Shown one piece after another: positions 1,414 to 23,538 of a DNA stretch of 64,000 nucleotides. Below the pieces are notes generated by a model that was not told where the DNA came from, made no database searches, and was given only the letters and a program-made list of their open reading frames with translations. The DNA comes from Arthrobacter sp. ES3-54 (GTDB lineage Bacteria > Actinomycetota > Actinomycetes > Actinomycetales > Micrococcaceae), in contig NZ_JAQFIF010000001.1 of assembly GCF_029504395.1 (NCBI RefSeq), forward strand, positions 558,001 to 622,000, written 5' to 3'. The translations under genes and the position numbers were made by a program. Within the stretch, counting starts at the first letter, position 1. Each line of letters starts with the position of its first letter.

Positions 1414-4400
1414 ATGACTGAGACGAAAAAGAACACAGAACCTGGGTCCGACAACATGGAACTCCTTCGGAAAGCTTGGCGGACGCTCCCGCCGACATGG
1501 CGGAGAAGCATCCGCAGCTCATTCCGTCCGGCGCTAGTGGAGAATGTCGTAAAAGCGACACCAAAATTTCACAAGAGCGTCGACTACGGCCTGTTGAGCG
1601 TGATTGTTCCTATTTATAACGTCGAGGAATACCTCGACGAATGTCTTAAAAGCGTTCTCCGCCAGAGCTACGAAAGACTGGAGGTGATCATTGTCGACGA
1701 CGGGTCCTCCGACGATTCCGTCAGGATCGCTCGCGGATATGAACGCTCGGATGGGCGAATTCGAATCGTGCAGCAACCCAATGCTGGCCTGGGTGCTGCC
1801 AGAAACACGGGTATCGCGGAGGCGCGCGGCGAGTTTATTACTTTCGCTGACTCCGACGACATTGTTCCGATTCGAGCCTACGAGGCGATGATGACGTCGC
1901 TTCACCATTCAGGGTCAGACTTTGCCATCGGTTCATTGAACCGATTGATGGGCAAACAGCGGACTGTTCCAAAGTGGGCGGCAGAAGTCCACAAGTCCGA
2001 TCGCATCGGTGTCACGTTGGAGGATTTCCCCGAGATACTCCAGGACGTCTTTGCGTGGAACAAGATTTTCCGGCGAGACTTCTGGAATGACAACGTGCGC
2101 TTGTTCCCGGAAGGAGTGCTGTATGAAGACCAGGAAACTACAGCTCGCGCCTATGCGCGGTCTTCGGGCTTCGATGTTCTTTCGGAAGTAGTTTATGACT
2201 GGCGGATTCGACAGGACCGATCTTCGATCACCCAGCAAAAGGACAATATAGTCGACCTCTCCGATCGACTACTGGTCGCTTCGCGGCTGCTTGAATTTAT
2301 GTCGGATGCTACTTCGCCCGCAGTCGTCGATTCATGGCTTGCCAAAGTGCTCGGGCCCGATTTAGGCCTCTATTACGCGCAGGTTCCGCGCGTCGGTGAG
2401 GAATACTGGCACCTTCTCCACGAAGCTGTGTCGAAATTGGCGGCGGAAGCCAGGCCGTCCGTCTGGTCGCGGATGGACGTCCACCACCGGATACTAGTGG
2501 ACCTCCTCCGCCGCGATAAACGTGCGGACTTCGAGCGCGTTGTCATAAGCAACGCGGAGACGGGGGCAAGCTACCCGCTGGTCAAGAGCGATGAAGGTTG
2601 GCATGCCCAGCCGGGCTACCTCGTCGAGCTTGAATCCGAAATTTCTCACGAGCTTCTGGCTGTCCGACTCGCCATGCTGAAGATCCAGTCTTCGCTGACG
2701 CGTGTGGAGCTCTTGGATGAAACGCAAATGGTCATCGAAGGCTTTGCCTATGTGCCCGGCATTTCTTCCGATATCACGGCTCCCTTGCTTCAATGCGACC
2801 TCGTGGAAGCACAGTCCGGCTTGAGTTTTCCGCTAACGGTCGAGACCTTTGCGGATCCTGCAATCGATATTGGATCCAACGATGCTTGGACCAGCTACAA
2901 AGAATCTGCATTCCGTGCGAGCATCGACCTGACGTCGCTCCGGGCTGCCACACCGCTAGACGTGGCCCAGCCCGAATGGTATGTCCGGCTCGCGCTGAAG
3001 CTTGGAAATGATCCCCTGGAGTCCCGCTTTGGATCGCGTCAGACTGGGGGAGCAGCCGGAAGCTTGCCGCTGCCCCCGGCTGTCGGTAACAGTCGCTTCG
3101 TCTGTCGGTTCTCCAGCGAGTTCGGACTATCACTGATTAGCGTTGCGCATCGGCGCTTCGTGGAAGACGTCACCTTGGACGGTCGCACGCTGACTCTTTC
3201 GGTAGTCGCCGCTCCAGGTGAAGTCCCCTCGCAAATCATCGTGGAATGTCCTGCCGCCAAGCTGTCAATCAGCGCACGGCCGGTCAACGAGAGTGGCACG
3301 ACCGTTTTCCGCGCCAATATACCGGAGTTGCCCTCTAAAGCAGGAAAGACCAAGCAGCACATCTGGAGAGTGCGCGTTGAAACTCAAGACAAAAAGCTTC
3401 ATCATCTCGCGTGGCGGGGAACAGATTCTCAGCTAGACCGGAAGTCGGGGCCCGGCGACCGGCTCCGCGTACGGGCCAGTGGCTTTGGCTACTTGGAACT
3501 TCACGATCGCCGGTGGCAGGTGGTCGCTGAAAAATTCACTCTTGCAGACGATGGGCAGTCAGTAGTTGTTTTGGCTAAAGCCAGCTTCGCTGACTCAGAT
3601 TCCACCCGTCTCGTGATGCCCAGTTTGGTTCTGGCCAATGGTCGGAGTCTTATCCGACCTTCCCGGACGGAATGGGTTCATGGCCAAAACGAAATTGTGG
3701 TCGAGTTTCCTCTCGCCCAGGAAAAGTGGGCGGCCTTCCCACAGGCACCTGAGTCCGGCAGCTACACCCTGCGGTGTCTCACCGCCGGCGACGGATCGAC
3801 GAATGGCGCATATTGGGTACCCGTGGCGCCGCTCATGGAAGCCAGTTTCCCGCTTGAGTTCGCCTTGCCCACAACAACCATCCGGGTCACACGCACCGCA
3901 AAAGCAGCAGCATTGTCCGTGCAATTCAACCCTCCATTCGAGGCAGATGAGCGCGGCCGACTAATGCAGAGCCGCTTGCAGCGCGAAATTCCGGCACTTA
4001 TCCGCCAGCCTGTCGAAGCCGGTGCTGTGCTGTTCGAATCGTTCAGCGGCAAGACCATCGGTGACAGCGGACTTGGTTTGTTCAATGAAATGGTGCGACG
4101 GGGAGACACCCGGGCCAAGTACTGGACAGTTCGTGATTTTTCCATGGCTGTTCCGACGGGTGCTCTGCCCGTCGTCATGTACTCCCGGGAATGGTACCGG
4201 CTGCTCCACACGGCAGAGTTTGTCGTAAACAACAGCAATTTTCCGTACTTCTACCGGAAGAATCCGGGACAGAAGTACATCCAGACGTGGCATGGGACGC
4301 CGCTCAAGAAAATTGGCAACGACATCGTTTCCTCGCAGCTGTCACTTCCTTATATCGGTCTCATGAAGAGGGAATCCGGGTACTGGGATTACCTCCTGGC

Positions 4401-5103
4401 CCAGAACCCGTTTGCGGAGGAGGTTTTGCCCAAGGCATTCGGATTCGAAGGAAGCACTCTTGCCCATGGATACCCGAGGAACGACGCCCTGATTGGTCCA
4501 GCGGCCGCGAAGAAGCGAAAGGCAGTCAGGGCCGCGCTTGGCCTGGCTGATGGAATCAAGGCCGTGCTCTATGCGCCGACCTGGCGGGATAATGTCCGCT
4601 CAGCCAACAACCAGTATGACCTTGTCAATTTCTTGGATGTCCAGAAGGCCGGCGATATCCTCGGCGCCGACTACGCGTTCCTACTGCGCGGTCATCACAA
4701 CGTCTCCGGTCAGCGATCCACAACTGGATTAGATAAGACCATCGATGTTACCGCCTATCCTGATGTCAACGACCTCTATTTGGCGGCAGACATCTTGGTC
4801 ACTGACTATTCGTCTGTAATGTTTGATTTCTGCGTCACAGGAAAGCCGATATATTTCCTGACTCCAGATCTTGAGCAATATCGGGACAATGTTCGTGGCT
4901 TCTACTTCGATTTTGAGGCAGCTGCACCTGGCCCGCTGGCCCGGACAACGCACCAGCTTGCTGAGGCAATTGCTGCGGGGTCGTCAGAAAACCACTATGC
5001 CGCACGCTACGAATCGTTTAGGACGCGGTTCGCAGGCCTGGATGACGGACGTTCTTCTGCCCGTGTATACGATGAAATTTGGGGCGACGGGAAGCTCGGG
5101 TAG
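1414..5103 (+). CDS. bifunctional GT2 / TagF-like glycerophosphotransferase
   Basis: A 1,229-residue protein with two catalytic ends. Residues ~60-290 are a GT2 (GT-A fold) domain with VIVPIYN at 63-69, a VDDGSSDD motif near 94-101 and an intact FADSDD at 144-149. Residues ~870-1220 form a CDP-glycerol glycerophosphotransferase (TagF/TarF) domain, with YIQTWHGTPLKK near 954, an LLRGHH motif and TDYSSVMFDF near 1130. The ~500 residues between look like beta-rich spacer and are not recognised. Known TagF-type enzymes polymerise polyol-phosphate on wall teichoic acid at the inner membrane face. The exact donor (CDP-glycerol or another CDP/NDP compound) cannot be told. ATG 1414 follows GAGAGACC. 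A paralogue with a degenerate GT2 domain is at 15705-19427. Confidence 0.85.
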   Translation: MTETKKNTEPGSDNMELLRKAWRTLPPTWRRSIRSSFRPALVENVVKATPKFHKSVDYGLLSVIVPIYNVEEYLDECLKSVLRQSYERLEVIIVDDGSSDDSVRIARGYERSDGRIRIVQQPNAGLGAARNTGIAEARGEFITFADSDDIVPIRAYEAMMTSLHHSGSDFAIGSLNRLMGKQRTVPKWAAEVHKSDRIGVTLEDFPEILQDVFAWNKIFRRDFWNDNVRLFPEGVLYEDQETTARAYARSSGFDVLSEVVYDWRIRQDRSSITQQKDNIVDLSDRLLVASRLLEFMSDATSPAVVDSWLAKVLGPDLGLYYAQVPRVGEEYWHLLHEAVSKLAAEARPSVWSRMDVHHRILVDLLRRDKRADFERVVISNAETGASYPLVKSDEGWHAQPGYLVELESEISHELLAVRLAMLKIQSSLTRVELLDETQMVIEGFAYVPGISSDITAPLLQCDLVEAQSGLSFPLTVETFADPAIDIGSNDAWTSYKESAFRASIDLTSLRAATPLDVAQPEWYVRLALKLGNDPLESRFGSRQTGGAAGSLPLPPAVGNSRFVCRFSSEFGLSLISVAHRRFVEDVTLDGRTLTLSVVAAPGEVPSQIIVECPAAKLSISARPVNESGTTVFRANIPELPSKAGKTKQHIWRVRVETQDKKLHHLAWRGTDSQLDRKSGPGDRLRVRASGFGYLELHDRRWQVVAEKFTLADDGQSVVVLAKASFADSDSTRLVMPSLVLANGRSLIRPSRTEWVHGQNEIVVEFPLAQEKWAAFPQAPESGSYTLRCLTAGDGSTNGAYWVPVAPLMEASFPLEFALPTTTIRVTRTAKAAALSVQFNPPFEADERGRLMQSRLQREIPALIRQPVEAGAVLFESFSGKTIGDSGLGLFNEMVRRGDTRAKYWTVRDFSMAVPTGALPVVMYSREWYRLLHTAEFVVNNSNFPYFYRKNPGQKYIQTWHGTPLKKIGNDIVSSQLSLPYIGLMKRESGYWDYLLAQNPFAEEVLPKAFGFEGSTLAHGYPRNDALIGPAAAKKRKAVRAALGLADGIKAVLYAPTWRDNVRSANNQYDLVNFLDVQKAGDILGADYAFLLRGHHNVSGQRSTTGLDKTIDVTAYPDVNDLYLAADILVTDYSSVMFDFCVTGKPIYFLTPDLEQYRDNVRGFYFDFEAAAPGPLARTTHQLAEAIAAGSSENHYAARYESFRTRFAGLDDGRSSARVYDEIWGDGKLG

Positions 5104-5307
5104 TCACTATCCGCGACATCCAGCCGGCGTTGGTTTAGGCGGGCCAGGGGGCTCCGCTGTTCGACCGGGACGGGGCCGACCCGCCGCGTTCGAAGATATA
5201 AGCCAACGCCGGCCAAGAAACTCGCGCTATAGCGTCCCTCCCATCCATCGCACTTGGTAGCGTTTGCAACGAAAAACTTGTTGAGCCTAAAAAGAATCGA
5301 AGCCGTC

Positions 5308-6870
5308 ATGTCAAACTATCGCATGGTTGTAAACCCGTGGCCCGTCATATTGCCGTCTTCATCAAAGACGCTTCGTCAGCCGCCACGACCTGCAAATCTG
5401 CAGCAATCCGGCTATCTAGATAAGTTTGATGCGAAAACGGTTTTCTATGATGTCTTTCGAGACGGCTCGGATATTGTTCTCTCCGGACCTCCTCTCCTTA
5501 ATCTTCAGGCCATCCTCGAGTCCACGCAGTTGATGGATGAGAATGGTGCGAGATTGAGAACGACTTATGGTGATCTCGATCGAACGCAGAACTCACGAGT
5601 TTTCGACGGTTCAGACTCGCAGTTCTTGTCTACATCGATTAGCGATATTGATATCTCATTTCCTGTGGCTCCAAGCCTTACGGAACTCTTTGCGGGCAGA
5701 AAAGTACTTTTCACGAAGTCAAAAGACAATGAGTTGACTTGGATTCGAGACTGGGCTTCTTTTCATGTAGTACACCAAGGCATCGATGCCCTTCTCATCT
5801 ATGACAATGGCTCAACAAAATACAGTGCAGAAGATGTTCTCGATTGCCTGAGAGGCATCGAAGGTCTCGAGACGGTCGTAGTTGTTAACTGGCCTTTCCT
5901 CTTTGGGCCCCAGGGAGGCAACTGGGAAGGTCTCAGGAATGCTCCCTGGGATTCCGATTTCTGTGAGTATGGAATTCTACAACATGCGAGGTATAGGTTC
6001 CTCCAGGAAAGTTACGGCGTCATTCATGCTGACGTCGATGAGTTGGTTGTCTCTGAGGATGGGCGAACTGTGTTCGAGATACTCGAAGCTTCCCCTGCGC
6101 CAGTCATTGGCTACACGGGGCGTTGGATCGAGGCTGCTGGTGCTGGCTTGGCGCCTGTGCTTCGTTTTAAAGACTTCAAATACTTTGATTCTCGACGAGC
6201 ACGCACCACTCCCAAATGGTCGGCTCTGACTGAGGGTATTAACGATGCAAAGCAGTGGAAGACGCACCATGTAGAAGGTGTAGCAACTGAGCGGACTGAA
6301 TCCGTACTTCACCGACACTTTGTTGGCATTAGTTCGAACTGGAAGTTCGACCGAACGAAGCAACGAGAAGTTGACGCTAAGCATTTCGTGGTAGACGACC
6401 GAATGGTTGGCCTACTCGCAAATCCGAGGCTGTCGAATGGACGGCAGGCCCAAGCGGGGTCGCCCGCCCCTCGTATTGTCGAATCGGGTAATTCTGGAGA
6501 TGTCCTGCTTGAGGTTCAGAAAGAGATTCACGCGAGTGGTTTTCTGCCGCAACCTGTGGCTCGGGAGTGGTATCACACGAAAGCAAAGCTGGTCTTTGAC
6601 TACAAGTGGGGTGACCTAAGGTTTGCATTTGACATCACCAATGAAGATGGGGAAATCGTGGTCCAGTTTCTTGGGCGGGACAAAATGTCTCAAGACATGG
6701 TGGAGCGGATATTGTCGACTGCCGGACTCGACGCACCAGTGGGAAGGCAGGGAAAACATACCGTCCTCACTCTAAAAGCTCGCGTCGTTGGGGGAGGGGC
6801 AGATGTTGCCAAATGTATGTCGTGCATTTTGAATGCCGCACGTAATGGCGGCATGTCCCGCGTCTCGTGA
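5308..6870 (+). CDS. glycosyltransferase, GT2/GT92-like
   Basis: Predicted glycosyltransferase of ~520 residues. Around residues 150-260 it has WIRDWASFH..GIDALLIYDNGS, then ADVDELVV. This layout (family-2-like 'Glyco_tranf_2_4' or GT92: strand, YDNGS, and DxDE metal site) fits a GT-A enzyme acting on an extracellular glycan. The acceptor is unknown. The frame is open from TTG 5254; ATG 5308 or ATG 5323 is more likely, although no strong ribosome site precedes either. Base composition is clearly poorer in G+C (about 50% in sampled lines) than the housekeeping genes to the right, suggesting recent acquisition. It lies 204 bases after the TagF-like gene, so co-transcription is possible but not certain. 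Confidence 0.65.
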   Translation: MSNYRMVVNPWPVILPSSSKTLRQPPRPANLQQSGYLDKFDAKTVFYDVFRDGSDIVLSGPPLLNLQAILESTQLMDENGARLRTTYGDLDRTQNSRVFDGSDSQFLSTSISDIDISFPVAPSLTELFAGRKVLFTKSKDNELTWIRDWASFHVVHQGIDALLIYDNGSTKYSAEDVLDCLRGIEGLETVVVVNWPFLFGPQGGNWEGLRNAPWDSDFCEYGILQHARYRFLQESYGVIHADVDELVVSEDGRTVFEILEASPAPVIGYTGRWIEAAGAGLAPVLRFKDFKYFDSRRARTTPKWSALTEGINDAKQWKTHHVEGVATERTESVLHRHFVGISSNWKFDRTKQREVDAKHFVVDDRMVGLLANPRLSNGRQAQAGSPAPRIVESGNSGDVLLEVQKEIHASGFLPQPVAREWYHTKAKLVFDYKWGDLRFAFDITNEDGEIVVQFLGRDKMSQDMVERILSTAGLDAPVGRQGKHTVLTLKARVVGGGADVAKCMSCILNAARNGGMSRVS

Positions 6871-7004: not shown

Positions 7005-8093
7005 TCACTTACCCAGCGGTTTCGCCGCCTGCATCTTGCCTCGGACACCGTCGCTCCGGTTGTGCTGGAGTACGAGTACGCGCCCGTCTTTCGTGACTGA
7101 AGGGTTGTTGTTCACAATCTGGACCGAGACGAGTCTGCCATCAAGATTGAAGGCGCCTTCTGCCTCGTATGTGTAGTTCGCGTTCGTGAGGTATCCGGGC
7201 TTGAGTTTGTTGACTACATCCCTAAAGTCGGCGCGTGTGTATTTGCGGGAGAGCGCCAGTTTGCCGTTGGTGTCCCATGCCTGGAAGGTCGGACTCTCCG
7301 ACTGACTACCTTGGATGAGGTAGAAGTATTTCCCGACCCATGCCAAGCCTTGATTTTTCGCTGCGGTCTTCGCGCCGGCCTTCGCGGGGATGGTTGCCAG
7401 CAGGGTGGGAGTACCGTCCCGGACGCTGCGCCAGTCGTAAACGTAGAAGTTTCTTACAGAAGTGGTTCCGGCATCAGTTGTTGCAAAATATCTGCCGGAT
7501 ACGTCAGCTCGCCAGACACCCTTAATTGGAATGTTGGGGCCCTTGATACCGGTGGTGTAGTTGTAGATAGCGTAGGTGGATGAATTCGCCGGGCCTCCAC
7601 CGGTTGCTCTGATGATGAAACATAGTTGCCCTCTTTGGTTGTAAAACCAGGGCAATGCTTCTGTCCAGCACAGATTCTCGGTCGTAACAGTTCTCGAAGA
7701 CTTTCTGACTCCTGACCGGAGGGTTCGCACGTCGATGCGCAACTTCGTGCCATCCTGGTTTGACACATATATTTTCTTGGCGGCCTTGTTGATAGAGACG
7801 CCCTGGGGCCAGGAAGTTTCACCTCTTTCCCGGACGGGAAAATCGCACAGGAGCGCCACTCGATCGAGGTATGAGAGCGGATCTGAGGCCATCTGGAGCG
7901 TTCCCCTGTATGTCGTCCTGGGGACGGCGAGGCTGGCGACCGCGCCGATTTGTGGTGGCGCGGCGGCGTTGTTCAGGGCTGTGGCGGTGGCTGCTAGCGC
8001 GGCTCCCAGCCAGGCCCGCCGCGTCAAAATCAGCCATTGCGCAGCGCTGAACGGATTCCCTTGGGGCGAAGGCCCCATTGCAGAGCCCGTCAT
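7005..8093 (-). CDS. exported Tat-type protein, propeller-like, unknown function
   Basis: A 362-residue protein with a twin-arginine-like signal: LTRRAWLGAALAATATAL at about residues 27-44. The remaining ~310 residues contain repeated short beta motifs (WPQGVSINKAAKKIYVSNQDG, then ADVSGRYFATTD, then NQGLAWVGKYFYLIQGSQ) that resemble blades of a beta-propeller. The pattern reminds me of the TagC/helveticin-J type proteins found near teichoic acid genes, but I cannot confirm that by eye. It is a single minus-strand gene between plus-strand glycosyltransferase and acyltransferase genes. A role outside the membrane in polymer handling is only inferred from context. Confidence 0.55.
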   Translation of the reverse strand: MTGSAMGPSPQGNPFSAAQWLILTRRAWLGAALAATATALNNAAAPPQIGAVASLAVPRTTYRGTLQMASDPLSYLDRVALLCDFPVRERGETSWPQGVSINKAAKKIYVSNQDGTKLRIDVRTLRSGVRKSSRTVTTENLCWTEALPWFYNQRGQLCFIIRATGGGPANSSTYAIYNYTTGIKGPNIPIKGVWRADVSGRYFATTDAGTTSVRNFYVYDWRSVRDGTPTLLATIPAKAGAKTAAKNQGLAWVGKYFYLIQGSQSESPTFQAWDTNGKLALSRKYTRADFRDVVNKLKPGYLTNANYTYEAEGAFNLDGRLVSVQIVNNNPSVTKDGRVLVLQHNRSDGVRGKMQAAKPLGK

Positions 8094-8441
8094 AACAAAA
8101 AGGTACTCTCAAGCTCTCCGGACGTCCATGGCCTGCGGGTAGAATCGCGCGGGTCGGACGCATCCTGATTCCGGGCCGCCCCTTTCGTAGCGTGCTGGGA
8201 TTTCATTTCGACTGCACTAAATCACCGGATGCACGCGTTTGGGCGAAATAAGGGCAACTGGGGTCGGAAACTCGAAGGGTCGCCCTCGTGAACCGACTCA
8301 TTGCGACGCTTTCGACTTTGAACGCGGCGGGACTCTGTTGCAGCAGGGTTGCTGAACGGTCTATGGGCGCAGAAAGGGTCCCACCATCCGCTGATGGCGC
8401 GGGCGATAGGATGGAGGCCGATAAATATAGGGAGACACCAG
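8094..8441. other. divergent intergenic region
   Basis: 348 bases between the exported protein (minus) and the acyltransferase (plus). No convincing gene was seen. It holds a GGGTAGAATC decamer at 8137-8146, which recurs at 12453-12462 upstream of another glycosyltransferase, and the conserved promoter-like block at 8401-8431 described separately. An open frame running upstream of 8442 is in frame with the acyltransferase but lacks family features. Confidence 0.5.
8401..8431 (+). promoter_or_regulatory. conserved promoter-like block, copy 1
   Basis: GGGCGAT, then AGGATGGAG, then CGATAAATATAGG. The TAGGAT at 8407-8412 could be a -10 hexamer. A nearly identical block lies at 9312-9344 in front of the next gene. 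A short inverted repeat (CCATC/GATGG, 8383-8396) sits just upstream. No good -35 is visible. Confidence 0.5.
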
Positions 8442-9137
8442 ATGACCGTTTTGCAGGGCGCCATGATTACGGCTGGCGACTATGGCAATGGCAACAAGAT
8501 CGTTGGGGCGCCGAGGACTTCGCCCGGCACGACACTGACCTTCGCGGGGTCAAACTGCACGGCCACGTTCGGGCCCGGGTCCACGGTGGAGGGCCACTTG
8601 AGTTTCCGCCGCGACGACTCGTCCATCGCCGTTGGGGAGCGGTCCGTGTTCCGCGGCCTGATGAGCCTCGGCCTCGGATGCGAAATCAGCGTCGGTGACG
8701 GCCTGTACTGCGGTGCAGGCGCATACCTGACCACCGCCGAGGGCGCGAGCATCAGGCTCGGAAACGACCTGCTTATTTCTGATCGCTTCCAAGCCCGCGC
8801 CGACGACTCCCACCCTATCTATGACGGGGTCACCGGCCGGAGGATTAACGTCTCGAAGTCCATTACGGTGGGTGACCATGTGTGGATCGGCGCAGACGTC
8901 ATCCTCATGCCCGGCGCCACGGTCGGGTCCGGAAGCATCCTGGGGATCCGCAGCATGGTCACCAAGTCCAGGCCTGTGCCGGAGAACTGCCTCGCTGTAG
9001 GCTCGCCCGCAGAGATTCAGCGTCGGCAGGTCGTGTGGGTTCGGAAGCACCTGCAAAGCGGTCTCGACGTCGACGATGCCATTGAGCCCGTATTCGTCGA
9101 GTACGAATCCGTGGCCGCGGGATCTCACCTTCCCTAG
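8442..9137 (+). CDS. hexapeptide-repeat acyltransferase (left-handed beta-helix)
   Basis: A 231-residue protein of the LbH/WbbJ-type O-acyltransferase family. It is made of hexapeptide-like repeats throughout (for example IRLGNDLLIS, ITVGDHVWIGADVILMPGATVG, GSILGIRSMV). The loop DDSHPIYD supplies the catalytic-type His, and the C-terminal turn reads NCLAVGSPAE. Such enzymes acetylate a sugar hydroxyl using acetyl-CoA in the cytoplasm; the substrate here is presumably a sugar of the wall polymer. ATG 8442 is preferred over the longer open frame from 8349 because GGGAGAC lies just upstream and the conserved promoter-like block ends there. The next gene begins 220 bases later with its own copy of the block. 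Confidence 0.8.
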   Translation: MTVLQGAMITAGDYGNGNKIVGAPRTSPGTTLTFAGSNCTATFGPGSTVEGHLSFRRDDSSIAVGERSVFRGLMSLGLGCEISVGDGLYCGAGAYLTTAEGASIRLGNDLLISDRFQARADDSHPIYDGVTGRRINVSKSITVGDHVWIGADVILMPGATVGSGSILGIRSMVTKSRPVPENCLAVGSPAEIQRRQVVWVRKHLQSGLDVDDAIEPVFVEYESVAAGSHLP

Positions 9138-9344: not shown

Positions 9345-9356
9345 TAGGGGGACGCT

Positions 9357-10436: not shown

Positions 10437-10796
10437 GGCTTGATTTTCCCCGTCTCGGTGACGGTAATGCCTGTCGAGCGACTCGTCCTACGGTACCAAC
10501 CCGCGCATTCAATGGCAGTGCATCGTCGTCGGTCAGACCAAGCGCCATAACGCAGTTTTTGCCAAGGATTCCGACGATGGGCCGCTTGCTGGTTGCGGGT
10601 GCATCGACAATCTGGTTTCCTCAGTCCGGGGTCAATGATGGGATCTCTGTCGTTCGGCAAACCGGTTGCTCTGGATCAGGGTCGAAATATCGGGTGCCAG
10701 AGGGCACACAATCGTAGTCGGAAACAGGGGTAAGCAAGCTGTGAGCAGGACCGATCAACTCATGTGCCGAAGGTCAGTACCAGCGAAAGGTTGCTC
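10437..10796. other. intergenic region, no gene recognised
   Basis: 360 bases between the GT-D gene and the first FN3-EEP gene. Short open frames exist on both strands (for example minus 10433-10660) but none has a recognisable domain or convincing start. It may carry the promoter of the downstream exported protein; no clear -10/-35 pair was found. Confidence 0.4.
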
Positions 10797-15458: not shown

Positions 15459-15476
15459 GAACCGTCTGTTGATCGC

Positions 15477-15524
15477 GGGCACTCGTCGCAACCCCGGGTT
15501 GCGATGAGTGCCCGTGTTTCGTTT
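15477..15524 (+). terminator. intrinsic terminator
   Basis: A 17-base stem (GGGCACTCGTCGCAACC with its complement, one G·U pair) and a 3-base loop at 15477-15513, followed by GTGTTTCGTTT. It lies 18 bases after the stop of the second EEP gene and would end this plus-strand series. Confidence 0.85.
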
Positions 15525-15704: not shown

Positions 15705-18700
15705 TCATCCGGTCGGGCCCTGGCTGGGAGGCACACCCAGCTCTGCCCTGTCCGGCCACAGCGTATCGAAGACGCGGGCCGTCGCGTGCCCGTCACAGTG
15801 CGGAGCGAACATCTTGACGAAGGCCTCATATTTGCGGGCATACAGGCCAGCTACGTCCGAGATGTTCTTGATTGATTCAATGACTTCCTCCGTGGTGCTG
15901 TGGAGGGGGCCTGGCGCCTTTTCTTCAAGATCGAAGTAGAAGCCCCGGGTTGAGTCCCGGTATTGCTTGATGTCCGGGGTCAGGAAGATGATCGGCTTGC
16001 CCGTCACACAGAAATCGAACATGACGGATGAATAATCGTTCACCAGGATGTCTGCGGCCGTGTAGAGGTCGTTGACTTCCGGGTACTCGGTCACATCGAT
16101 GACGAACTTGTTTGCCGCCGTCTGCCTCTGGCTTGCGATGTTGTGGTGTCCGCGCAGAAGCAGCACGTAATCGCTGCCGAGCTGCATCTGGGCCTTTTCG
16201 AAATCGAGGTAGGTGACCATCTCGTACTGCCGTGAGGCGTTCTTTGCATCGTCGCGCCAGGTGGGGGCGTAAAGGATCGCAGTCTTGCCGTCGGGGATGC
16301 CGAGCTTGGTGCGGATGGCAGCACGGTTCTGCTCCATCCGCTCGGGGGTGAGGCTGTCGTTACGCGGATAGCCCTCGACCACAACCCTGCCCTCGAACCC
16401 GAAGCACTCTGCAAGGACCCCGGCGGCGTATTCGTTCTGCGCCAGGAGGGCATCCCAGTACTCCGCCTCCCGCCACATGAGGTTCCAGTATGAAAGGGAG
16501 AAGCTCGTCCGGGCGACGTCGTTGCCTAGCTTCTTTAGCGGAGTGCCGTGCCAGGTCTGGATATAGACCTGACCCTCACGCTTGCGGAAGTAGAACGGGA
16601 AGTTGTTGTTGTTGATCAGGATCCGAGACTCGGTCAAGAGGCGGTACCACAACCGAGAACCGATCAGAACCGGTTCGGTTCCGCCCGGCACAGGCACCGA
16701 GTAGTCCGCGACCGCCCAGTACATGGGCCACTTGCTTCCCCTGCGCTGGAATTCTTCCAGGAGGCGGCGCGGGCTGTCTGTGGCGCGGCGCCCACCGAAG
16801 CACATGAACAGAACGGCGTCCTGAAGTTCAGCGCTTCCGGCCAGCGTTACCGGAGTGCGCAGCGTCTGTTGGGCGAATCTGCCGAGTTCATCAGCGGCGT
16901 AGGGCGGGCGAAGGTGGATGGTTAGCGCGCCGTTCCTTGACGTGCGGCTTACTCCGATTTCGAGCCGGTCCGCTTCCATTCTCGCGGGCATCTGTTTCTG
17001 AAACCCGGACGACGCCGGAATCCAGTACCCGAGGTGGTCGGCGACCCCCGGCGGGACGTGACGCACGCTGTAGGCCCCGGTTTCCGGCATTACCTCGTCA
17101 CCGCCCCAAGGCCGCTGAGGCAACAGGAATTCGGCAGTGAAGACGTTGCTTCCCTCATTGGTCCGGACGGCCAAGACAACGTCAGTCGCAGGGATGACGG
17201 CCTTCCCACTGGCGAGGACAATGCGGGGGACCGGGGTCATCGGCAGGTCTGCAGTGCACTCGATTCGAAGGGTGCGTTTGTCGGGTGAAACGTCGACTTT
17301 GGACGCAAAAACGCGGCGCTTCCGCTCCTCGACAGCGATAAACCCGTAACCTGTCAGGCTCAGCCTGAGGCTTCGGGTATCGTCGGACTGCGCCAGGAGC
17401 TCGTGGGAGCCCCCCTGCCACGCCACTGGCTGCGGCGCTTTAAGGCCGTTGTCCAGACGCAGCTGCCACTCGTACTCCACTGTTGCTCCGGCTGACGTTG
17501 CGAGCGCCGGGATGTTGATGGTGTAGGCGGCCCGGTTCCCGGCCACTTCCTGGCAGGTAGCGGTCTTCCGGATGCCAAACTTTCGGCTCTCGATGGAAAC
17601 CCTGGCGGCCACAGGGGCCGCATGGGCTTCGACGGTGAGCTTCAGGGTTCGCCCCGCCAGTTCCATCGATGTTGCCACATACCGTGGTGTGACCGGAATC
17701 AAAGTCAGGCCGGTGGTTGACGCGCGCATCTCCACGGCCATCCTTGTGGTGCCCTGCATGGGCCCCACGGGCAGCTGACCGGTTGAACCGTTGAGGTCAC
17801 GGCGCGTCAATGGCGCTGCGAGTGTGTGACCGCCGGCACTGACAGTCAGGAGAACGTGCCAGCTGGCGGGCTCTGCAGCCCCGTTCTCTTCAAGCACCAC
17901 GGCCGGGTCAATGGTGGCACTGAAACCCGCGTCAGCGTAGGACGTCCAGTTGTCATTGGACTCCCAATCGATGGACTTGTCCGTGTGGCGCACCACTGCC
18001 AGGGGAACAGCCCGACCGCTGGTGAGGTTGACGAGGGACGCCTGGATGGCGAGGTTGCCACCGCTTGGATCCACTGAGGAGATGTACGCGTGACCGCCGA
18101 TTACTAGCTTGCCATCGTCCTGCCAGTCGAAACGGGTCATCTTGCTGACCAGGCGCAGGTCAATATCGCGGCAGGACAGGAGCCCGGGTTCGTAGCCTGA
18201 AAGTTCGTCCAGATACAGGGGCCGTGCGAGGATCCCGGAAGCCGTCACCACCGTCGGAAAGCTGGACGCGTAGTCGCTCCGGTGGTTACAGATACGGACA
18301 ACGTCCTCGCGCTTGTCCGCGATGACGGCGGAGAGGATGAGCCGGTTGTGGATCCGGATGAGATCCCAGTCCAGCTCCTGACCTTCGCTAAGGCGCAGCA
18401 CGGTGGCATGCAGCAAATCCCAGTACTCGAGGCTGGTGCGGGGCACCACCTCGTAATAACGGAATAGCCCGTTTCCCAGTTCTTCGGAAAGCAAACTCCG
18501 ATAGTCTTCGGGCGCCGACACCGCGCGGACTACAGCGGCCAAGGACTCGAGACGGTGCAGGCGGTCTTCGAGGTATCCCGGCTGGCAGATCAGCTCGCGG
18601 GACGGTGGCCGGATAGCGGAGTCCAAGGATGTATTGACGACCTTGCGGTTCAGAACGTCGAATGACTTGGCGCGCGTGTACAGGGTGGCAACGGCCTCGT

Positions 18701-19427
18701 ACTGCCAGTGTTCGCGATCCACTGCGACGTCGGCGGTTGCCGAAATCCAGAAATCACGCCTGAATAGCTTGTTGGCAAGGGCGCCATCAACCAGGATCTC
18801 CGGGACGTCCGCAAAACTGGCCCCGGGCCGGGGTTTAGCGTGGATTTTCTGCTGCCGTGGCGACGTGGAGCTGATTTTGCCCTTCACGATTCCGGTCATA
18901 CCGACGACGAAAGACGAGCCGGTCTCGCGCAGCGAGCGGAGCATGGTGTCCAAGCTATGTTTTTCAACCACATCCCCCGCCATGAGGAACATCAGGTATG
19001 GGGCCCGCGAAGAGGCCACGGCGCGGTCCCGGGCTTCTTCCTCGCCGACGCCGGAAAGTGCGAGGTACTTCACCCGGCGGTCACGCTTCACGAATGGCTG
19101 TACTGCTCCCTTGCCCACGCTGGCCGATGACGTATCAATGACGATCATTTCCAGCGCGGGTTTCTGGCCAACTAGGCTTCTCAGCGTCTTATCTGGATCG
19201 GACGCGTAATCTGTCACCAGGACGACGACGGAGAGCTGTGGTAGCTGAAAGATGCCGAGTGGGGATGCGTTGAGCGCACGTTGAACCTTGGCCAGGTTGG
19301 CCGGATGGGCCAACTTCCGGATCTGCTGTTGATGCTGCGGAGGCAACGCCCGCCATGCGCGCCGCAGATTCCTCTTAGCAGCGGCTTTCAACGAAGCTAT
19401 GGCTTGGCTCTCCCTGCGACCTGGCAT
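15705..19427 (-). CDS. TagF-like glycerophosphotransferase with degenerate GT2 domain
   Basis: A 1,240-residue paralogue of 1414-5103. The C-terminal CDP-glycerol glycerophosphotransferase domain is intact (YIQTWHGTPLKK, PTWRDD, LLRGHHN, NDYSSVMFDF). In the N-terminal GT2 domain (residues ~65-290) the acidic motifs are gone: VDDGSSDD is replaced by IDTSSAS near 97-103 and FADSDD by FLMAGD at 147-152. This half is therefore likely inactive or purely structural. ATG 19427 is preferred because GAAAGAAG precedes it; the frame stays open to 19574. It is the last gene of a minus-strand run that starts with the metallophosphoesterase. Polymer type is not determined. Confidence 0.82.
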   Translation of the reverse strand: MPGRRESQAIASLKAAAKRNLRRAWRALPPQHQQQIRKLAHPANLAKVQRALNASPLGIFQLPQLSVVVLVTDYASDPDKTLRSLVGQKPALEMIVIDTSSASVGKGAVQPFVKRDRRVKYLALSGVGEEEARDRAVASSRAPYLMFLMAGDVVEKHSLDTMLRSLRETGSSFVVGMTGIVKGKISSTSPRQQKIHAKPRPGASFADVPEILVDGALANKLFRRDFWISATADVAVDREHWQYEAVATLYTRAKSFDVLNRKVVNTSLDSAIRPPSRELICQPGYLEDRLHRLESLAAVVRAVSAPEDYRSLLSEELGNGLFRYYEVVPRTSLEYWDLLHATVLRLSEGQELDWDLIRIHNRLILSAVIADKREDVVRICNHRSDYASSFPTVVTASGILARPLYLDELSGYEPGLLSCRDIDLRLVSKMTRFDWQDDGKLVIGGHAYISSVDPSGGNLAIQASLVNLTSGRAVPLAVVRHTDKSIDWESNDNWTSYADAGFSATIDPAVVLEENGAAEPASWHVLLTVSAGGHTLAAPLTRRDLNGSTGQLPVGPMQGTTRMAVEMRASTTGLTLIPVTPRYVATSMELAGRTLKLTVEAHAAPVAARVSIESRKFGIRKTATCQEVAGNRAAYTINIPALATSAGATVEYEWQLRLDNGLKAPQPVAWQGGSHELLAQSDDTRSLRLSLTGYGFIAVEERKRRVFASKVDVSPDKRTLRIECTADLPMTPVPRIVLASGKAVIPATDVVLAVRTNEGSNVFTAEFLLPQRPWGGDEVMPETGAYSVRHVPPGVADHLGYWIPASSGFQKQMPARMEADRLEIGVSRTSRNGALTIHLRPPYAADELGRFAQQTLRTPVTLAGSAELQDAVLFMCFGGRRATDSPRRLLEEFQRRGSKWPMYWAVADYSVPVPGGTEPVLIGSRLWYRLLTESRILINNNNFPFYFRKREGQVYIQTWHGTPLKKLGNDVARTSFSLSYWNLMWREAEYWDALLAQNEYAAGVLAECFGFEGRVVVEGYPRNDSLTPERMEQNRAAIRTKLGIPDGKTAILYAPTWRDDAKNASRQYEMVTYLDFEKAQMQLGSDYVLLLRGHHNIASQRQTAANKFVIDVTEYPEVNDLYTAADILVNDYSSVMFDFCVTGKPIIFLTPDIKQYRDSTRGFYFDLEEKAPGPLHSTTEEVIESIKNISDVAGLYARKYEAFVKMFAPHCDGHATARVFDTLWPDRAELGVPPSQGPTG

Positions 19428-19576
19428 TCTTGGATTCGCTTCTTTCGTCTGTTTCCAACCGGTGGTTGTTGCGTCATTGGGTAAAAGTAGATGGGTGCAG
19501 CCTCCGCGTTGCTCGCTGAACCATCTGTCAATAATGGCACGGGGTTCCCGGCAGACCCATCCCAGAGGGCTCAAGC

Positions 19577-21511
19577 CTAGAAGGGCTTCTTGAGGATCAA
19601 GTCGACATTCTGGTCCTTGATGCCGCCGCTCATCTCAGCGCGATCCAGTCCTGGACGGTTCATGGCGAGTTCGAGGCTCAATGCCGCAAGGGACTGGGCA
19701 GTTTGCTCGCCCTCGTGCCGCACGCTCTCCGGCGTCGAATGGTCCACCAAAGTGGCCGCAATTGACAGCGTTCCGTCGCCGTTGTCCATGAGCTCGACAA
19801 TTCTCGATTGCTGCGGGTAGTCAATGAGGGAGGCCGTGGTAATTTCCCAGAATCCGCCATATTCATATTTGGCTTTGTGCGGGGTCACTTTGTGCTTGTG
19901 CCTGTGGCCGTTCATCCACGCGACCACGTTGGGGAAGCGGGACAGCAACTCCAGGAGTGCAGATCGATTCAACGCCGGCCGACCGCCGTCGGACGATTGC
20001 TCCTCTTTGTCAAAGGTGGACAGTGGATGGTGGCTGAACAACACTATGAGGCGGTCCTGAGCCGTGGATGCGGTGAGCTTGCCCTTGGAATCGTAGGATT
20101 TCGCGGACGCGCCCTTGAGTTGTTCCTCAAGCCAGTCGGCCTGGGCCGCATCCAGGACGGCCACGGTGCTGCCATCCGGGCTCGCTGTGTTCAGCATGAT
20201 GCCGACTACCCCGGGAGATACGTCGAAGGTGTAGTAGGGCTTCGCCTCGGAGTCCGGGCCGGAACCAAACTGAACCCTGGATTCACCGGCCGGCAAGGCG
20301 TCCATGAACTCTGCCTTGGAGAACGGGCGGCGTAGTTTCGAGGCATTCACGGTTCGGGAAGGCATTGATTTGATAAGCCTGCGGCGTTCGCCGGTATTGG
20401 AACCATTGACATCCTTCCAGAAGTCAGTGGTGTCCATGCCTTTCGGGAGCCGAATCGGAAGCCGGTCACCGATTCGAAGAGTGTCAACGAACTGCGCCTT
20501 GGGGGAAACCGGGTCCGAAGGGGACCGACCGGCTTCATCGTGATTTCCCACGCCGATGTACCACGGGAAAGCTGAACCCTGCGCGTTCACCGGCTTGATG
20601 GCCGCCGTGAGAAATCCGGGAACGGTGGGATAACCGTGCAGCGCCTTCCAATCATCCGGGGAGATCAGCGTATTTTCCGGCTCGGGATGCCAAATGCTCT
20701 TCGACAGCTCGCGAGGAGCCGGGCCGTGGTCCTGGACGCCGCGATAGGCAGCGGTGGGATGTGAGGTCACGGATCCCCCCTGGAAAACACCGGCTGCGGC
20801 CGACAGTTCGCTGAGGGCAAAGGTGTTGGTGAGATCGCCCGTGGTCACTAGGCAGTCAATAGCGCGTTGGCCAATGGGGCCAATGCGGACCGCGTTGAAC
20901 TTCCGGACCGTCGCGTCCAGAACGTGGACCGTCAAGAGGTCCTGGGGCCTGAATCTCCCGGACGAAGGGTATCCGTCCGAGAAGTCAAAGTATTGCCACA
21001 GAAAGGACAGCCTGCCGGGATTGGCTGCGTCGAGAACGTGTGCGTCCGTCAGATGTCCGAATGTTGCCAGCCCGATGCGCTGGCGGCTAACAGCGCGGCC
21101 CCGGGTGCAGAGGTCCTCACGGACCAGCGTCTCAAGGGCCGGTCCGCGCGCCAGCCTCTGGTAGGGCAGGCGAGGCGCGGCCCGGGATCCTAAGATGACG
21201 GTGGCTTCCAGTGTTGACAGCGGTGCTGCCGGCTCCGGAATTGCCTGTGCGTTCCCCGAGGATTTGGATGAGGATTCCGATGTTGATCCGGAAGCCCCCA
21301 GCACAGTGACGCCTACCGCACCAGCCAGAGACCACCGGAGGGCTCTTCGCCGGGATACAGGCGTGTTGTTCGGCTGTCGCACTTGCTGATGTAACCCTTG
21401 CTGTTGCGATCGGCTTGCGGTGGCGTCAGTCGCCTGAGCCGCCAAACTTCGGACTGCTGAGCTGCCCTTAGAGGCTGGCGTTGGCCCGGACGAGGTCGTC
21501 CGGGAAGTCAA
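19577..21511 (-). CDS. exported calcineurin-like metallophosphoesterase (PPA1498-like)
   Basis: Metal-dependent phosphoesterase, up to 644 residues. All signature motifs are visible: HLTDAH, TTGDLTNT, VGNHDE, FSHHPLST and NGHRHKHK. Size and layout recall the actinobacterial TIGR03767 (PPA1498) family. A twin-arginine signal, VSRRRALRWSLAGAVGV, lies ~50 residues after the first ATG, so export as a folded metalloprotein is likely. The ATG start at 21511 overlaps the upstream gene by 44 bases; GTG 21382, after CAAGGG, would give a conventional Tat leader and may be the true start. The position between a TagF-like gene and a nucleotidyltransferase suggests a wall-polymer phosphodiester as substrate, which is inference. 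Confidence 0.82.
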   Translation of the reverse strand: MTSRTTSSGPTPASKGSSAVRSLAAQATDATASRSQQQGLHQQVRQPNNTPVSRRRALRWSLAGAVGVTVLGASGSTSESSSKSSGNAQAIPEPAAPLSTLEATVILGSRAAPRLPYQRLARGPALETLVREDLCTRGRAVSRQRIGLATFGHLTDAHVLDAANPGRLSFLWQYFDFSDGYPSSGRFRPQDLLTVHVLDATVRKFNAVRIGPIGQRAIDCLVTTGDLTNTFALSELSAAAGVFQGGSVTSHPTAAYRGVQDHGPAPRELSKSIWHPEPENTLISPDDWKALHGYPTVPGFLTAAIKPVNAQGSAFPWYIGVGNHDEAGRSPSDPVSPKAQFVDTLRIGDRLPIRLPKGMDTTDFWKDVNGSNTGERRRLIKSMPSRTVNASKLRRPFSKAEFMDALPAGESRVQFGSGPDSEAKPYYTFDVSPGVVGIMLNTASPDGSTVAVLDAAQADWLEEQLKGASAKSYDSKGKLTASTAQDRLIVLFSHHPLSTFDKEEQSSDGGRPALNRSALLELLSRFPNVVAWMNGHRHKHKVTPHKAKYEYGGFWEITTASLIDYPQQSRIVELMDNGDGTLSIAATLVDHSTPESVRHEGEQTAQSLAALSLELAMNRPGLDRAEMSGGIKDQNVDLILKKPF

Positions 21512-22166
21512 CCTCCACGGCGTAGAACTCGCTGATGTCCACAGGGGTCCACTTGACGTCGTCCTGCTTGATGGTCAGTTCGATCGCGCGCTCAAAGTAG
21601 TCCTGGTCGTCGACTTCGATGAGTCGCTTGAGGAACTTCTTCTTGTCCTTGGAGCTGACGTAGTTGATGCCGACAGCCTCGCCCTGGGCAACATCGGCGG
21701 GGACAGTCTTGGACAGCTCCAGGATGTTGCCGTCGGCGTCGGTGGTGTACTTGACTTCCTCGTCGGAAACCGAGGACACATCAACGGTGATGAAGGATTC
21801 ATCGCGCTTGATGTAGGGCGCCAGCATCTGAAGAATGTCGGGGTCGAACACGACGTCGCCGTTCATCCAGAGGACGCCACCCTTGGCCGAATTCCGGATC
21901 GCCTTCAGGAGGCTCTTGGAGGTGTTGGTCTGGTCAAAGTTCTCGTTGTACACAAACGACGCGTCCGGGACGTGTTCGAGGATCATTTCGAGCTTGAAAC
22001 CAACAGCAATGGTGAGGCGGAGCCCCTTGCCGAATGCTTTCCGCAGGTTGTGGACCTGCTGGTGCATGATGGTGCGGCCGTCACTGAGCTCTGTCATGGG
22101 CTTCGGGTGCGGACGTGCCAGCCGCGTTCCCATTCCGGCGGCAAGAATTACGGCCTGGACTTTCAT
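21468..22166 (-). CDS. LicC-like nucleotidyltransferase
   Basis: A 232-residue sugar/alcohol-phosphate nucleotidyltransferase. The N-terminal signature is VQAVILAAGMGTRLA with PKPM, followed by the metal-site WMNGDVVFD. Small enzymes of this shape include phosphocholine cytidylyltransferase (LicC), so a CDP-activated alcohol or choline-like donor is plausible; sugar-1-phosphate substrates cannot be excluded. No choline kinase gene is present in the window. AGAGGAAAAACAC precedes ATG 22166. The 3' end overlaps the longest form of the metallophosphoesterase gene. Confidence 0.75.
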   Translation of the reverse strand: MKVQAVILAAGMGTRLARPHPKPMTELSDGRTIMHQQVHNLRKAFGKGLRLTIAVGFKLEMILEHVPDASFVYNENFDQTNTSKSLLKAIRNSAKGGVLWMNGDVVFDPDILQMLAPYIKRDESFITVDVSSVSDEEVKYTTDADGNILELSKTVPADVAQGEAVGINYVSSKDKKKFLKRLIEVDDQDYFERAIELTIKQDDVKWTPVDISEFYAVEVDFPDDLVRANASL

Positions 22167-22372
22167 GTGTTTTTCCTCTTCTACGAGCGATCCTGGTGGC
22201 GGGAGCGGCGAGCCATTGCATCGCTAGAGATCGCCCCAGAACCGTTTACACGGACCAGAGGGCGCCTCCCCCGCGTCCAAGCATAAGGGCTGAGCATCGG
22301 TGGCACCGAATGATGCGCGCAATCCTACGTTAATGCTGTGTTAACTTCCCGGATGACGTCCCGTTGCCGTGG

Positions 22373-22386: not shown

Positions 22387-22392
22387 GGGCGC

Positions 22393-23538
22393 TTACCCGC
22401 CGGTGAAGTCGCTAATCCGGGACCCCACGCCCACGAGTTCCTCGATGGCTGCCACGGTCCGCGCGGCCGCCTTGCCGTCCCCGTAGGGGTTGACGGCGTT
22501 TGCCATCGCGGCAAAATGTCCGGGGTTGTGGAGCAGGCGGGTCACCTCGGTGACGATCCGTTCTTCGTCCGTACCGATCAGCTTCACGGTGCCGGCTTCA
22601 AGGGCTTCGGGGCGTTCGGTGTTTTCCCGCATCACGAGGACCGGCTTGCCGAGGCTTGGGGCTTCCTCCTGCACTCCGCCCGAGTCCGTCAACACCACAT
22701 GGGCGACGGACAGTAGCCGGGTGAATTCGCCGTAGGCCAGCGGTTCCGTGACCAGGACGTTGGCCTTGCCCTCCAGCGCGGGAAGCACTGCCTCGCGCAC
22801 CACGGGATTCTTGTGGGCGGGCAGGACGATCACGAGGTCCGGCTCGGCGTCGGCGATCCGGGCCAGCGCCCGTCCCACGCCGCGCATGGATTCGCCCTGG
22901 TTCTCACGACGGTGCGTGGTAACCAGCAGGATCCGGCGACCGCTGGCGGCGAGTTCTTCCAGCCTGGGGTCCGTGAAGGGGAGCTGCTTGTCCACTGTGG
23001 CGAGCAGGGCGTCGATCACCGTGTTTCCGGTCACCACGATGTCCTGAGGGCTGATGCCTTCCCTCAGCAGGTTTTCCCTGCTGGTGGAGGTGGGTGCCAG
23101 GTGCAGGCGGGTGATCTGGCTGGTGATCTTGCGGTTGGCTTCCTCCGGAAACGGGGAGAGCAGATCGCCGCTGCGCAGGCCGGCCTCGACGTGCACCACT
23201 GGGATGCCGTGATAGAACGCCGCGATGGCGGCAGCCGTGGACGTGGTGGTGTCGCCCTGGACAACGACGGCGTCTGGCCGCGACTGGGCGAAGAGCGTCT
23301 CTAGGCCGTCGATGGTGCGCGTCATGATGGCGGACAGCGACTGGCGCTGCTGCAGGATGTTGAGGTCATGGTCCGGAACGATGCCGAACAGTTCGTTGAC
23401 CTGGTCCAGCATCTCGCGGTGTTGGCCCGTGACCGTCACGATGCAGCGGAAGTGCGGAGACTCCTGCAGGGCACTGACGATCGGCGCCATCTTGATGGCT
23501 TCCGGCCTGGTTCCGAAGATCGGCATGATGCTGTGCAT
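22393..23538 (-). CDS. wecB: UDP-N-acetylglucosamine 2-epimerase (non-hydrolysing)
   Basis: Interconverts UDP-GlcNAc and UDP-ManNAc in the cytoplasm. It is 381 residues long, the usual size. Motifs include PIFGTRPEAIKMAP at the N-terminus, TGQHREM, VVQGDTTT, HVEAGLRSGD, PFPEEANR, TTHRRENQG and LTDSGGVQEEAP, all expected for the family. GGGGGATAGTCC precedes ATG 23538. It provides the substrate for the two WecC enzymes in this window, so UDP-ManNAcA is very likely made. The upstream minus-strand gene ends 53 bases before it. Confidence 0.93.
   Translation of the reverse strand: MHSIMPIFGTRPEAIKMAPIVSALQESPHFRCIVTVTGQHREMLDQVNELFGIVPDHDLNILQQRQSLSAIMTRTIDGLETLFAQSRPDAVVVQGDTTTSTAAAIAAFYHGIPVVHVEAGLRSGDLLSPFPEEANRKITSQITRLHLAPTSTSRENLLREGISPQDIVVTGNTVIDALLATVDKQLPFTDPRLEELAASGRRILLVTTHRRENQGESMRGVGRALARIADAEPDLVIVLPAHKNPVVREAVLPALEGKANVLVTEPLAYGEFTRLLSVAHVVLTDSGGVQEEAPSLGKPVLVMRENTERPEALEAGTVKLIGTDEERIVTEVTRLLHNPGHFAAMANAVNPYGDGKAAARTVAAIEELVGVGSRISDFTGG

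Follow-up and report, generated by a model that had tools for sequence, protein, structure and literature searches.

The first 31 kb of the window analysed here, a stretch of 64,000 nucleotides from Arthrobacter sp. ES3-54 (contig NZ_JAQFIF010000001.1, positions 558,001 to 622,000; coordinates below are counted from its first letter), are filled by a polymer locus in which two polymerases of the TagF type and a LicC-like nucleoside triphosphate (NTP) transferase lie together with genes for exported phosphoesterases: EEP1 and EEP2, two secreted proteins that combine FN3 with an endonuclease/exonuclease/phosphatase (EEP) domain, and MPE, a metallophosphoesterase with a signal for twin-arginine translocation (Tat). 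This combination of genes is real, non-random and modular. Similarity searches covered 149 genomes, namely 91 of the genus (numbered G000, the source genome of 4.77 Mb in 35 contigs, to G090) and 58 from other families of the same order, and nine genomes of the genus, called carriers below, were found to possess it. The G+C fraction was 0.53–0.65 in the first 24 kb as compared to 0.61–0.75 (mostly at least 0.66) past 30 kb. The locus is larger than an earlier note on this DNA had stated and starts upstream of the window: there, ddl, the left flank of the insertion site, is followed by GT-B glycosyltransferases and an ABC-2 transporter pair, as seen from a Pfam run on the orthologues in G085 (the exporter matches PF01061 and PF00005, and its orthologues just upstream of the window are 96–98% identical). 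The order then runs from a WecC-type gene through TagF1, a putative glycosyltransferase (GT), an exported protein at 7005–8093, an acetyltransferase, a GT-D enzyme, EEP1, a GT2 with a TarS linker and EEP2 to the convergent genes of TagF2, MPE, the LicC-like enzyme and WecB, followed by further glycosyltransferases and finally thiL.

TagF1 (1414–5103, forward strand) is a fusion of a GT-A (GT2) domain (PF00535, 126 bits) with a TagF domain (PF04464, 322 bits), and TagF2 (15705–19574, reverse strand) combines a TagF domain of 333 bits with a weaker GT2-like domain of 35.9 bits. In both proteins both domains exceed the Pfam cut-offs (22.1 bits for PF04464 and 23.3 bits for the GT2 domain), in accordance with the earlier description of two giant GT2–TagF fusions. 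Among solved structures TagF2 was closest to TagF of Staphylococcus epidermidis (3l7i, E=2e-69) and then Cps3D (8qoy, E=3e-36). The HGTP motif and the region of a second His align with 3l7i (TagF2 was the polymerase aligned), and we take the His residues of these regions to be its catalytic pair. Two His residues are catalytically important in TagF-type polymerases according to passages of PMC5974469. TagF2 is the conserved polymerase, with an orthologue in eight of the nine cassettes, whereas TagF1 is the variable one: the second TagF differs in relatives and is, for example, a TPR-TagF-GT-B protein in G061 (its domains were tested in that genome, and those of other relatives were assigned by similarity). 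Passages of the same source describe both designs, GT-A/TagF and TPR-TagF/GT-B, in Gram-negative capsule polymerases, which make phosphate-linked polymers of the poly(glycosylpolyol phosphate) or poly(oligosaccharide phosphate) type (PMC5974469).

The third biosynthetic gene (21468–22166, reverse strand) encodes an NTP transferase of the MobA/sugar-nucleotide type (PF12804, 53 bits); the earlier label LicC-like was right as to this type, whereas the name LicC was returned by none of the libraries searched. Among the 82 other genomes of the genus, a single weak match was detected (G049, 23 bits, E 8.6e-5). Outside the genus the enzyme was found at 17 places in 15 genomes (at least 200 bits), and at eight of these places a strong TagF lies within 3 kb, which supports the inferred role of making the activated donor for TagF. 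No TagD (TIGR01518) exceeded the cut-off anywhere in the source genome (best score 62.9 as compared to 165.4 bits, on another contig); TarI was not searched for. The LicC-like enzyme may stand in for the alditol cytidylyltransferase TagD/TarI. Elsewhere in the same genome (G000:C11:114999–116931, equal to L150:16999–18931), a TagD-like cytidylyltransferase (PF01467) is directly followed by an exported GDPD of the GlpQ family (PF03009) with a lipoprotein-like signal, and nearby genes resemble other polysaccharide genes; here one more family of exported phosphodiesterases stands next to a gene that possibly serves the activation of an alditol.

EEP1 (10764–12146; PF03372 and PF00041) and its paralogue EEP2 (14049–15458), both on the forward strand, each possess one FN3 and one PF03372 domain and an N-terminal hydrophobic export signal as read from the sequence, so that the earlier prediction of two secreted FN3-EEP proteins holds; across the EEPs the number of FN3 repeats ranges from 1 to about 5. 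The model of EEP1 (pLDDT 86.6, built on 21 sequences) was nearest to the solved folds 3mpr, 4c1r, 3g6s and 3l1w (Z 28–30), three of which are from Bacteroides and one from Enterococcus, one being named a mannosyl-6-phosphatase; Nocturnin, CNOT6L, PDE12, TDP2 and sphingomyelinases scored lower (Z 21–25). Every residue checked at a presumed catalytic position is present in EEP1. In EEP2, Gln replaces the His at position 306 of EEP1, which is kept in 19 of 21 aligned EEPs. The same replacement is found in a relative (L076:9911–11350) that likewise stands behind a relative of the TarS-linker GT2, and it is thus no change confined to a single strain. Two other assignments were rejected: the extracellular nuclease ExeM/NucH, which EEP1 matched with 24.7 bits as compared to a cut-off of 300 bits and EEP2 not at all, and the derivation of these enzymes from phages or plasmids, since a pattern scan found no relatives of the EEPs or of the 7005–8093 protein in viral contigs and a plasmid scan for relatives of the exported proteins returned five records, all below 60% identity and 80% coverage.

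MPE (19577–21511, reverse strand) scored 334.5 bits against TIGR03767 (cut-off 330.75 bits) and bears the twin-arginine signal SRRRALRW, read from its sequence, in line with the earlier assignment as a Tat-type metallophosphoesterase. In four of the nine carriers the protein falls slightly short of this value (319–327 bits). Because relatives align from residue 44, the true start is probably at 21382, which would remove the overlap with the preceding gene and retain the twin-arginine signal. The motifs D-x-H, GD, GNHD, HH and GHxH, which we take to form a calcineurin-type metal site, are kept in MPE and in the relative at L085. Pfam gave no match at E 0.001, and PF00149 appeared at a laxer limit with 19.0 bits, below its cut-off. 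None of the exported enzymes of the locus belongs to the GDPD family (PF03009), the EEPs matching PF03372 and MPE at most PF00149 below its cut-off. In Arthrobacter sp. EPSL27 the MPE gene is split into several frames (L087:548–1802) beside an intact-looking locus with LicC-like and TPR-TagF genes.

Within the genus, full-length EEP (at least 400 bits), MPE (at least 300 bits) and the LicC-like enzyme (at least 450 bits) were each detected in the same nine genomes (G000, G010, G014, G032, G061, G073, G085, G087 and G088), and strong TagF (PF04464 of at least 240 bits) in these nine and in one more; the EEP counts leave out FN3-only, EEP-only or partial matches below 60 bits and the MPE counts partial matches below 45 bits. 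The co-occurrence check that the earlier note had proposed was thereby run: EEP and MPE, each nine of nine, occur only in the TagF genomes of the genus (Fisher p 1.3e-11 for EEP and strong TagF over the 91 genomes, a test that ignores phylogeny). On a tree of MurA, GpsA and Ddl from 41 of these genomes (all nine carriers together with genomes close to them in Ddl and further hand-picked ones), the joint TagF-EEP-MPE label changed seven times, at least six changes being forced by well-supported branches, and in seven independent contrasts of TagF, EEP and MPE followed in six, with none opposite and one without difference (p 0.031). Clustering of the TagF label on this tree did not go beyond shuffling (75 of 500 shuffles were as low). 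The association is not just a matter of common descent. Moreover, the genes are physically linked: those of the LicC-like enzyme, MPE and TagF2 are adjacent in eight of the nine carriers (in G073 a contig end falls inside TagF2), and the ninth, G010, shows the order WecB, MPE, LicC-like, TPR-TagF. In eight of nine the distance between an EEP and a TagF is at most about 8.5 kb, and in G032 the EEP is found on another contig beside the exporter and WecC. Identity to the genes of the window amounts to 90–97% for the LicC-like enzyme (in all eight other carriers), 62–85% for MPE, 69–85% for TagF2 and 50–63% for EEP.

The ddl region was read in 41 genomes of the genus. In 26 of these the site is empty, with ddl and thiL 0.6–4.0 kb apart (in 21 less than 1 kb), as compared to 39 kb in the genome of the window. 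Seven of the nine TagF cassettes lie on the same contig as ddl, which in G014 and G073 is on another contig. Six further genomes (G019, G050, G083, G078, G046 and G089) carry other cassettes after ddl, with exporter, glycosyltransferase and WecC-type genes, and TagF, LicC-like, EEP and MPE genes were found nowhere in these six genomes. The far-side thiL was reached in G019, G083 and G089, in G078 and G046 the contig ended first, and among the genes inspected past the cassette of G050 there was no thiL. Whole blocks are exchanged at this one site. Four of the TagF-less genomes (G019, G050, G083 and G078) possess, inside the cassette, Glyco_hydro_cc proteins (PF11790) with Tat-like signals (L140:6244–7101, L146:2590–3531, L138:6516–7553 and G078:C18:31013–31699), whose genes adjoin wecB in G019, G050 and G083, and among the 91 genomes PF11790 was detected in exactly these four. 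From these contents it follows that exported phosphoesterases accompany the TagF cassettes, whereas in this TagF-less type their place is taken by a glycoside hydrolase that is likewise exported. Each of the four genomes holds at least one copy in the TagF-less cassette after ddl and more copies elsewhere. WecB is common to cassettes with and without TagF, its TagF-less relatives being 93–94% identical in G019, G050 and G083 and 83% in G089. Large proteins of 865–1047 residues are encoded next to DUF218 by several cassettes, among them ones of either type (L055:12264–15407, L138:1251–3944 and L058:4962–7559); two of these three gave sub-threshold metallopeptidase matches and the third none.

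Beyond the genus, a scan of genome contigs for EEPs yielded 23 named loci, six from the nine carriers and 17 from 14 further genomes. Of the flanks examined, 13 contain TagF (10 strong, 3 weak), four only exporter, WecC or glycosyltransferase genes and one only a GT-B gene; with polymer genes in 18 of 23 flanks (counting the GT-B one), the EEPs do not lie mostly away from polymer loci, the outcome that the earlier note had named as speaking against its claim. PF04464 was present in all 14 further genomes, eight of which are Propionibacteriales. Cultured strains that possess the cassette include Arthrobacter humicola 53 (L077) and Pseudarthrobacter oxydans CC185 (L084). For a further Fisher test (14 against 24 of 150) the background was an ad hoc one, and no conclusion is drawn from it. 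MPE was found in six of the 14, near TagF in four, broken in one (G155) and 160 kb away in one (G154). Among the 58 genomes outside the genus, eight have an MPE of at least 250 bits, three of them with a strong TagF. Taken together, these distributions indicate that EEP predicts TagF while TagF does not predict EEP, and that MPE predicts TagF only in Arthrobacter-type genomes. Within the genus TIGR03767 proteins are linked to TagF; the family taken as a whole is not dedicated to it, five of the eight strong carriers outside lacking a strong TagF. At L093, genes for an IspD/TarI-like protein, a short-chain dehydrogenase/reductase, a weak TagF, a TagD-like protein and a secreted phospholipase D (PLD) lie beside the EEP gene; L094 and L096 agree with it in their genes for ABC, weak TagF and EEP, the other neighbours of L094 being alike by N-terminal sequence only. 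Secreted PLD-like proteins stand beside EEPs in Propionibacteriaceae at L093:6684–8330 and L090:90–1643, and that of L093 lies within the TarI/TagD/TagF-like locus.

As to the remaining genes, the exported protein at 7005–8093 (reverse strand) had been called propeller-like; neither Pfam nor a PDB sequence search gave a match up to E=10, and its AlphaFold model from a single sequence reached a pLDDT of 37, so that the label finds no support. It was found in two of the 149 genomes and in G085 about 93 kb from TagF, a distribution on which it was rejected as a component, and it is probably not part of the conserved system. A second copy, 60% identical, lies about 500 kb from the locus (G000:C1:47403–48335; L037, L072). 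The WecC-type UDP-sugar dehydrogenase (116–1405, forward; PF03721, PF00984 and PF03720) has orthologues in seven of the nine cassettes (the window and six relatives, 82–94%) and was not seen in G010 or in G014, where the locus is split across contigs. A second such dehydrogenase was detected by domain search at 26701–27972 (forward), and WecB, the UDP-GlcNAc 2-epimerase, is encoded at 22393–23538 (reverse; PF02350, 388 bits); both parts of the earlier wecB/wecC assignment are thereby confirmed. Also on the forward strand are a putative glycosyltransferase (5254–6870; PF13704 at E=0.0055 and PF01697 at E=0.053, both below cut-off), a hexapeptide O-acetyltransferase-like protein (8349–9137; PF00132, with relatives in G085 and G061), a glycosyltransferase of the GT-D fold (9357–10436; PF08759, 97 bits) and the GT2 with the TarS linker domain (12533–13987; PF00535, and PF22181 with 81 bits). 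The right part of the locus (24854–31014, forward), which has orthologues in G085 and G010, contains glycosyltransferases at 24854–26704 and 28840–31014 and a protein without assigned family at 27969–28853, and ends at thiL (31059–32144, forward; PF00586), named from its AIRS domain and neighbourhood. One LCP-like query, for the transferase that attaches wall teichoic acid to peptidoglycan, found nothing in the window; no family search was made.

A direct repeat TTAAC-N6-TTAAC with an 11-nt period (22329–22344, reverse strand) precedes the genes of the NTP transferase, MPE and TagF2. It is the sole match in the window, and in the upstream regions of the nine carriers it is exact in five, has one mismatch in two and is absent in two; the pattern was chosen after viewing the alignment, and that it is rare in the window therefore provides no independent evidence. 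Of the Streptomyces-type PHO box, a pair of GTTCACC heptamers, only scattered single heptamers were found in the first 24 kb. In Streptomyces coelicolor the PHO box consists of two 11-nt direct repeats and a teichoic acid cluster is phosphate-regulated, according to passages of PMC7866108. The TTAAC repeat is PHO-box-like, a lead only towards phosphate control. The longest stem, a terminator-like hairpin of 20 pairs (15474–15516, forward), lies between the convergent EEP2 and TagF2 genes; such hairpins are not enriched as a class, since 11 sites were found as compared to 12.1 expected by shuffling, and a promoter scan (1 site, 3.3 expected) was uninformative. The last 80 or so bases of the leader of the LicC-like gene (22167–22345) are well conserved in nine genomes. 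Rfam gave no match in 1–34000, and for the consensus fold of the leader the covariation term (+1.03) was opposite in sign to what support would require; therefore no RNA is claimed.

We propose that a swappable cassette between ddl and thiL builds a phosphodiester polymer and exports hydrolases of that same polymer, a reading which we consider probable. As to the identity of the donor, the structure of the polymer and the substrate and purpose of the exported enzymes, we infer that the LicC-like NTP transferase would make an activated phospho-donor, which the two TagF fusions would use together with sugar nucleotides, including the UDP-ManNAc and UDP-ManNAcA expected from WecB and WecC, for a polymer with phosphodiesters in its backbone; the upstream ABC exporter would move this polymer out, and EEP1, MPE and perhaps EEP2, exported separately by Sec and Tat, would hydrolyse its phosphodiesters outside the membrane, for turnover, trimming or recovery of phosphate. 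The earlier note had likewise proposed a polymer locus with its own enzymes, and it is partly confirmed: gene content, co-occurrence and linkage speak for it, whereas the propeller label finds no support and the protein so named drops out as a part of the system.

Several observations weigh against this proposal. In the genus, G062 has a strong TagF and five further genomes have PF04464 of 75–100 bits, all without EEP or MPE, and the TagF-less cassettes of G046 and G089 hold no exported hydrolase that could be named. TagF and EEP are linked in one direction only: PF04464 of at least 100 bits is present in 23 of the 58 genomes from outside the genus, and an EEP covering most of the query was found in one of the 58 (G136, 58 bits). 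In the examined flanks of five of the 23 EEP loci (L075, L086, L090 on a contig of 5.8 kb, L091 and L095) no polymer gene was recognised, and one more has only the GT-B gene. PF04464 is common in Propionibacteriales, being present in 50 of 96 relatives of one further EEP genome, so that co-occurrence alone is weak there, and no MPE was found in the eight Propionibacteriales genomes with EEP. Outside the genus, MPE occurs with no TagF in G100, G118, G122 and G137, with a weak one in G121, and with a strong one on a different contig in G096, G103 and G136. EEP2 lacks the His at a catalytic position. Furthermore, the EEP fold serves nucleases too, and proximity of folds does not show function.

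One alternative is that the exported enzymes are phosphate scavengers, acting as nuclease or phosphodiesterase on nucleic acids and lipids of the soil and merely sharing a mobile island with the polymer genes. In line with it are the nucleases of the EEP fold, the weak ExeM/NucH match of EEP1 (24.7 bits), TIGR03767 proteins elsewhere without TagF and the PHO-box-like repeat ahead of the operon. We regard scavenging as unlikely, however, given that the NucH cut-off of 300 bits leaves EEP1 outside that family, that all 23 examined genomes with full-length EEP (9 and 14) possess TagF, that 18 of 23 EEP flanks contain polymer genes (one of them GT-B only), and that neither EEP nor MPE is present in the genomes whose cassette at this site lacks TagF. 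The strict joint inheritance of enzymes and polymerase within the genus, the position of MPE between the genes of the donor enzyme and TagF2 in eight of nine carriers and the mannosyl-6-phosphatase among the PDB relatives of EEP are also compatible with a role in biosynthesis, in which the enzymes would set nascent chains free, shorten them or attach them anew, or take off terminal or side-chain phosphate, for assembly and not for degradation; AlgL provides a precedent in alginate synthesis (passages of PMC9075953). Such processing appears improbable to us, to a similar extent as scavenging, as two unrelated phosphoesterase folds per locus and EEPs with 1 to about 5 FN3 repeats look more like extracellular hydrolysis, and as MPE, frame-broken beside an otherwise intact-looking TagF locus in L087, may be dispensable there unless the frame breaks are sequencing errors. 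Lastly, the high variability of the site, which may be empty or hold the TagF type or two other types, and the stronger divergence of EEP and MPE (50–85%) as compared to the NTP transferase (90–97%) would fit a serotype island whose exported hydrolases attack the differing polymers of relatives or strip phage receptors. Competition would, however, require no match between the classes of enzyme and polymerase, yet this match holds in the 13 cassettes with TagF or Glyco_hydro_cc, and we consider this explanation very unlikely.

The reading that the cassette degrades its own polymer can be widened to a matching rule, by which each ddl–thiL cassette would bring an exported depolymerase matched to the bond of its polymer, EEP and MPE (and PLD in the equivalent locus of Propionibacteriaceae) going with TagF and Glyco_hydro_cc glycosidases with TagF-less polymers, and by which FN3-EEP would be a new class of teichoic acid hydrolase with an EEP fold. 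We put this rule forward tentatively, giving it somewhat less than an even chance. Teichoicases and hydrolases inside polymer clusters are already known; what is new is that phosphoesterases of unrelated folds are tied to TagF cassettes and that the class of hydrolase changes with the cassette. Among the titles and abstract openings listed by searches of open-licence literature there was no description of EEP or TIGR03767 proteins with TagF loci. The TagF-like capsule polymerases Cps1B, Cps3D, Cps7D and CslB share the same two multidomain architectures, with TagF2 matching Cps3D (8qoy), whereas the locus described here is actinobacterial and contains two polymerases together with exported phosphoesterases, the latter being absent from the passages of PMC5974469. 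In Bacillus, GlpQ (exolytic) and PhoD (endolytic) cut wall teichoic acid and are linked to phosphate starvation, according to passages of PMC7086022. The exported enzymes of the cassette are comparable as predicted phosphodiesterases, and differ in family, GlpQ belonging to GDPD as compared to EEP (PF03372) and TIGR03767. PhoD represents another family again, and the tag genes of Bacillus do not include glpQ and phoD. With PPA1498-type metallophosphoesterases (TIGR03767), MPE shares membership by score and the Tat signal read from its sequence, while linkage to TagF was seen here solely in Arthrobacter-type genomes. Polymer clusters with their own depolymerase are represented by those of AlgL, PelA and PslG in passages of PMC9075953, and the Glyco_hydro_cc cassettes fit them directly; in the TagF cassettes, by contrast, the predicted bond is a phosphodiester, the folds are those of phosphoesterases, and at a single site a different cassette brings a different class of enzyme.

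If the proposal is true, the bond of a surface polymer not yet characterised could be predicted from the class of exported hydrolase encoded next to its locus, and FN3-EEP proteins, TIGR03767 proteins of the MPE type and the secreted PLD of Propionibacteriaceae would each gain a testable substrate. It would likewise provide defined depolymerases for typing and stripping the surface polymers of actinobacteria. Moreover, the reason why polymer loci keep their own hydrolases is termed elusive in the abstract of PMC9075953, and two related cassettes at one site in sister strains would then offer a natural experiment on this question.

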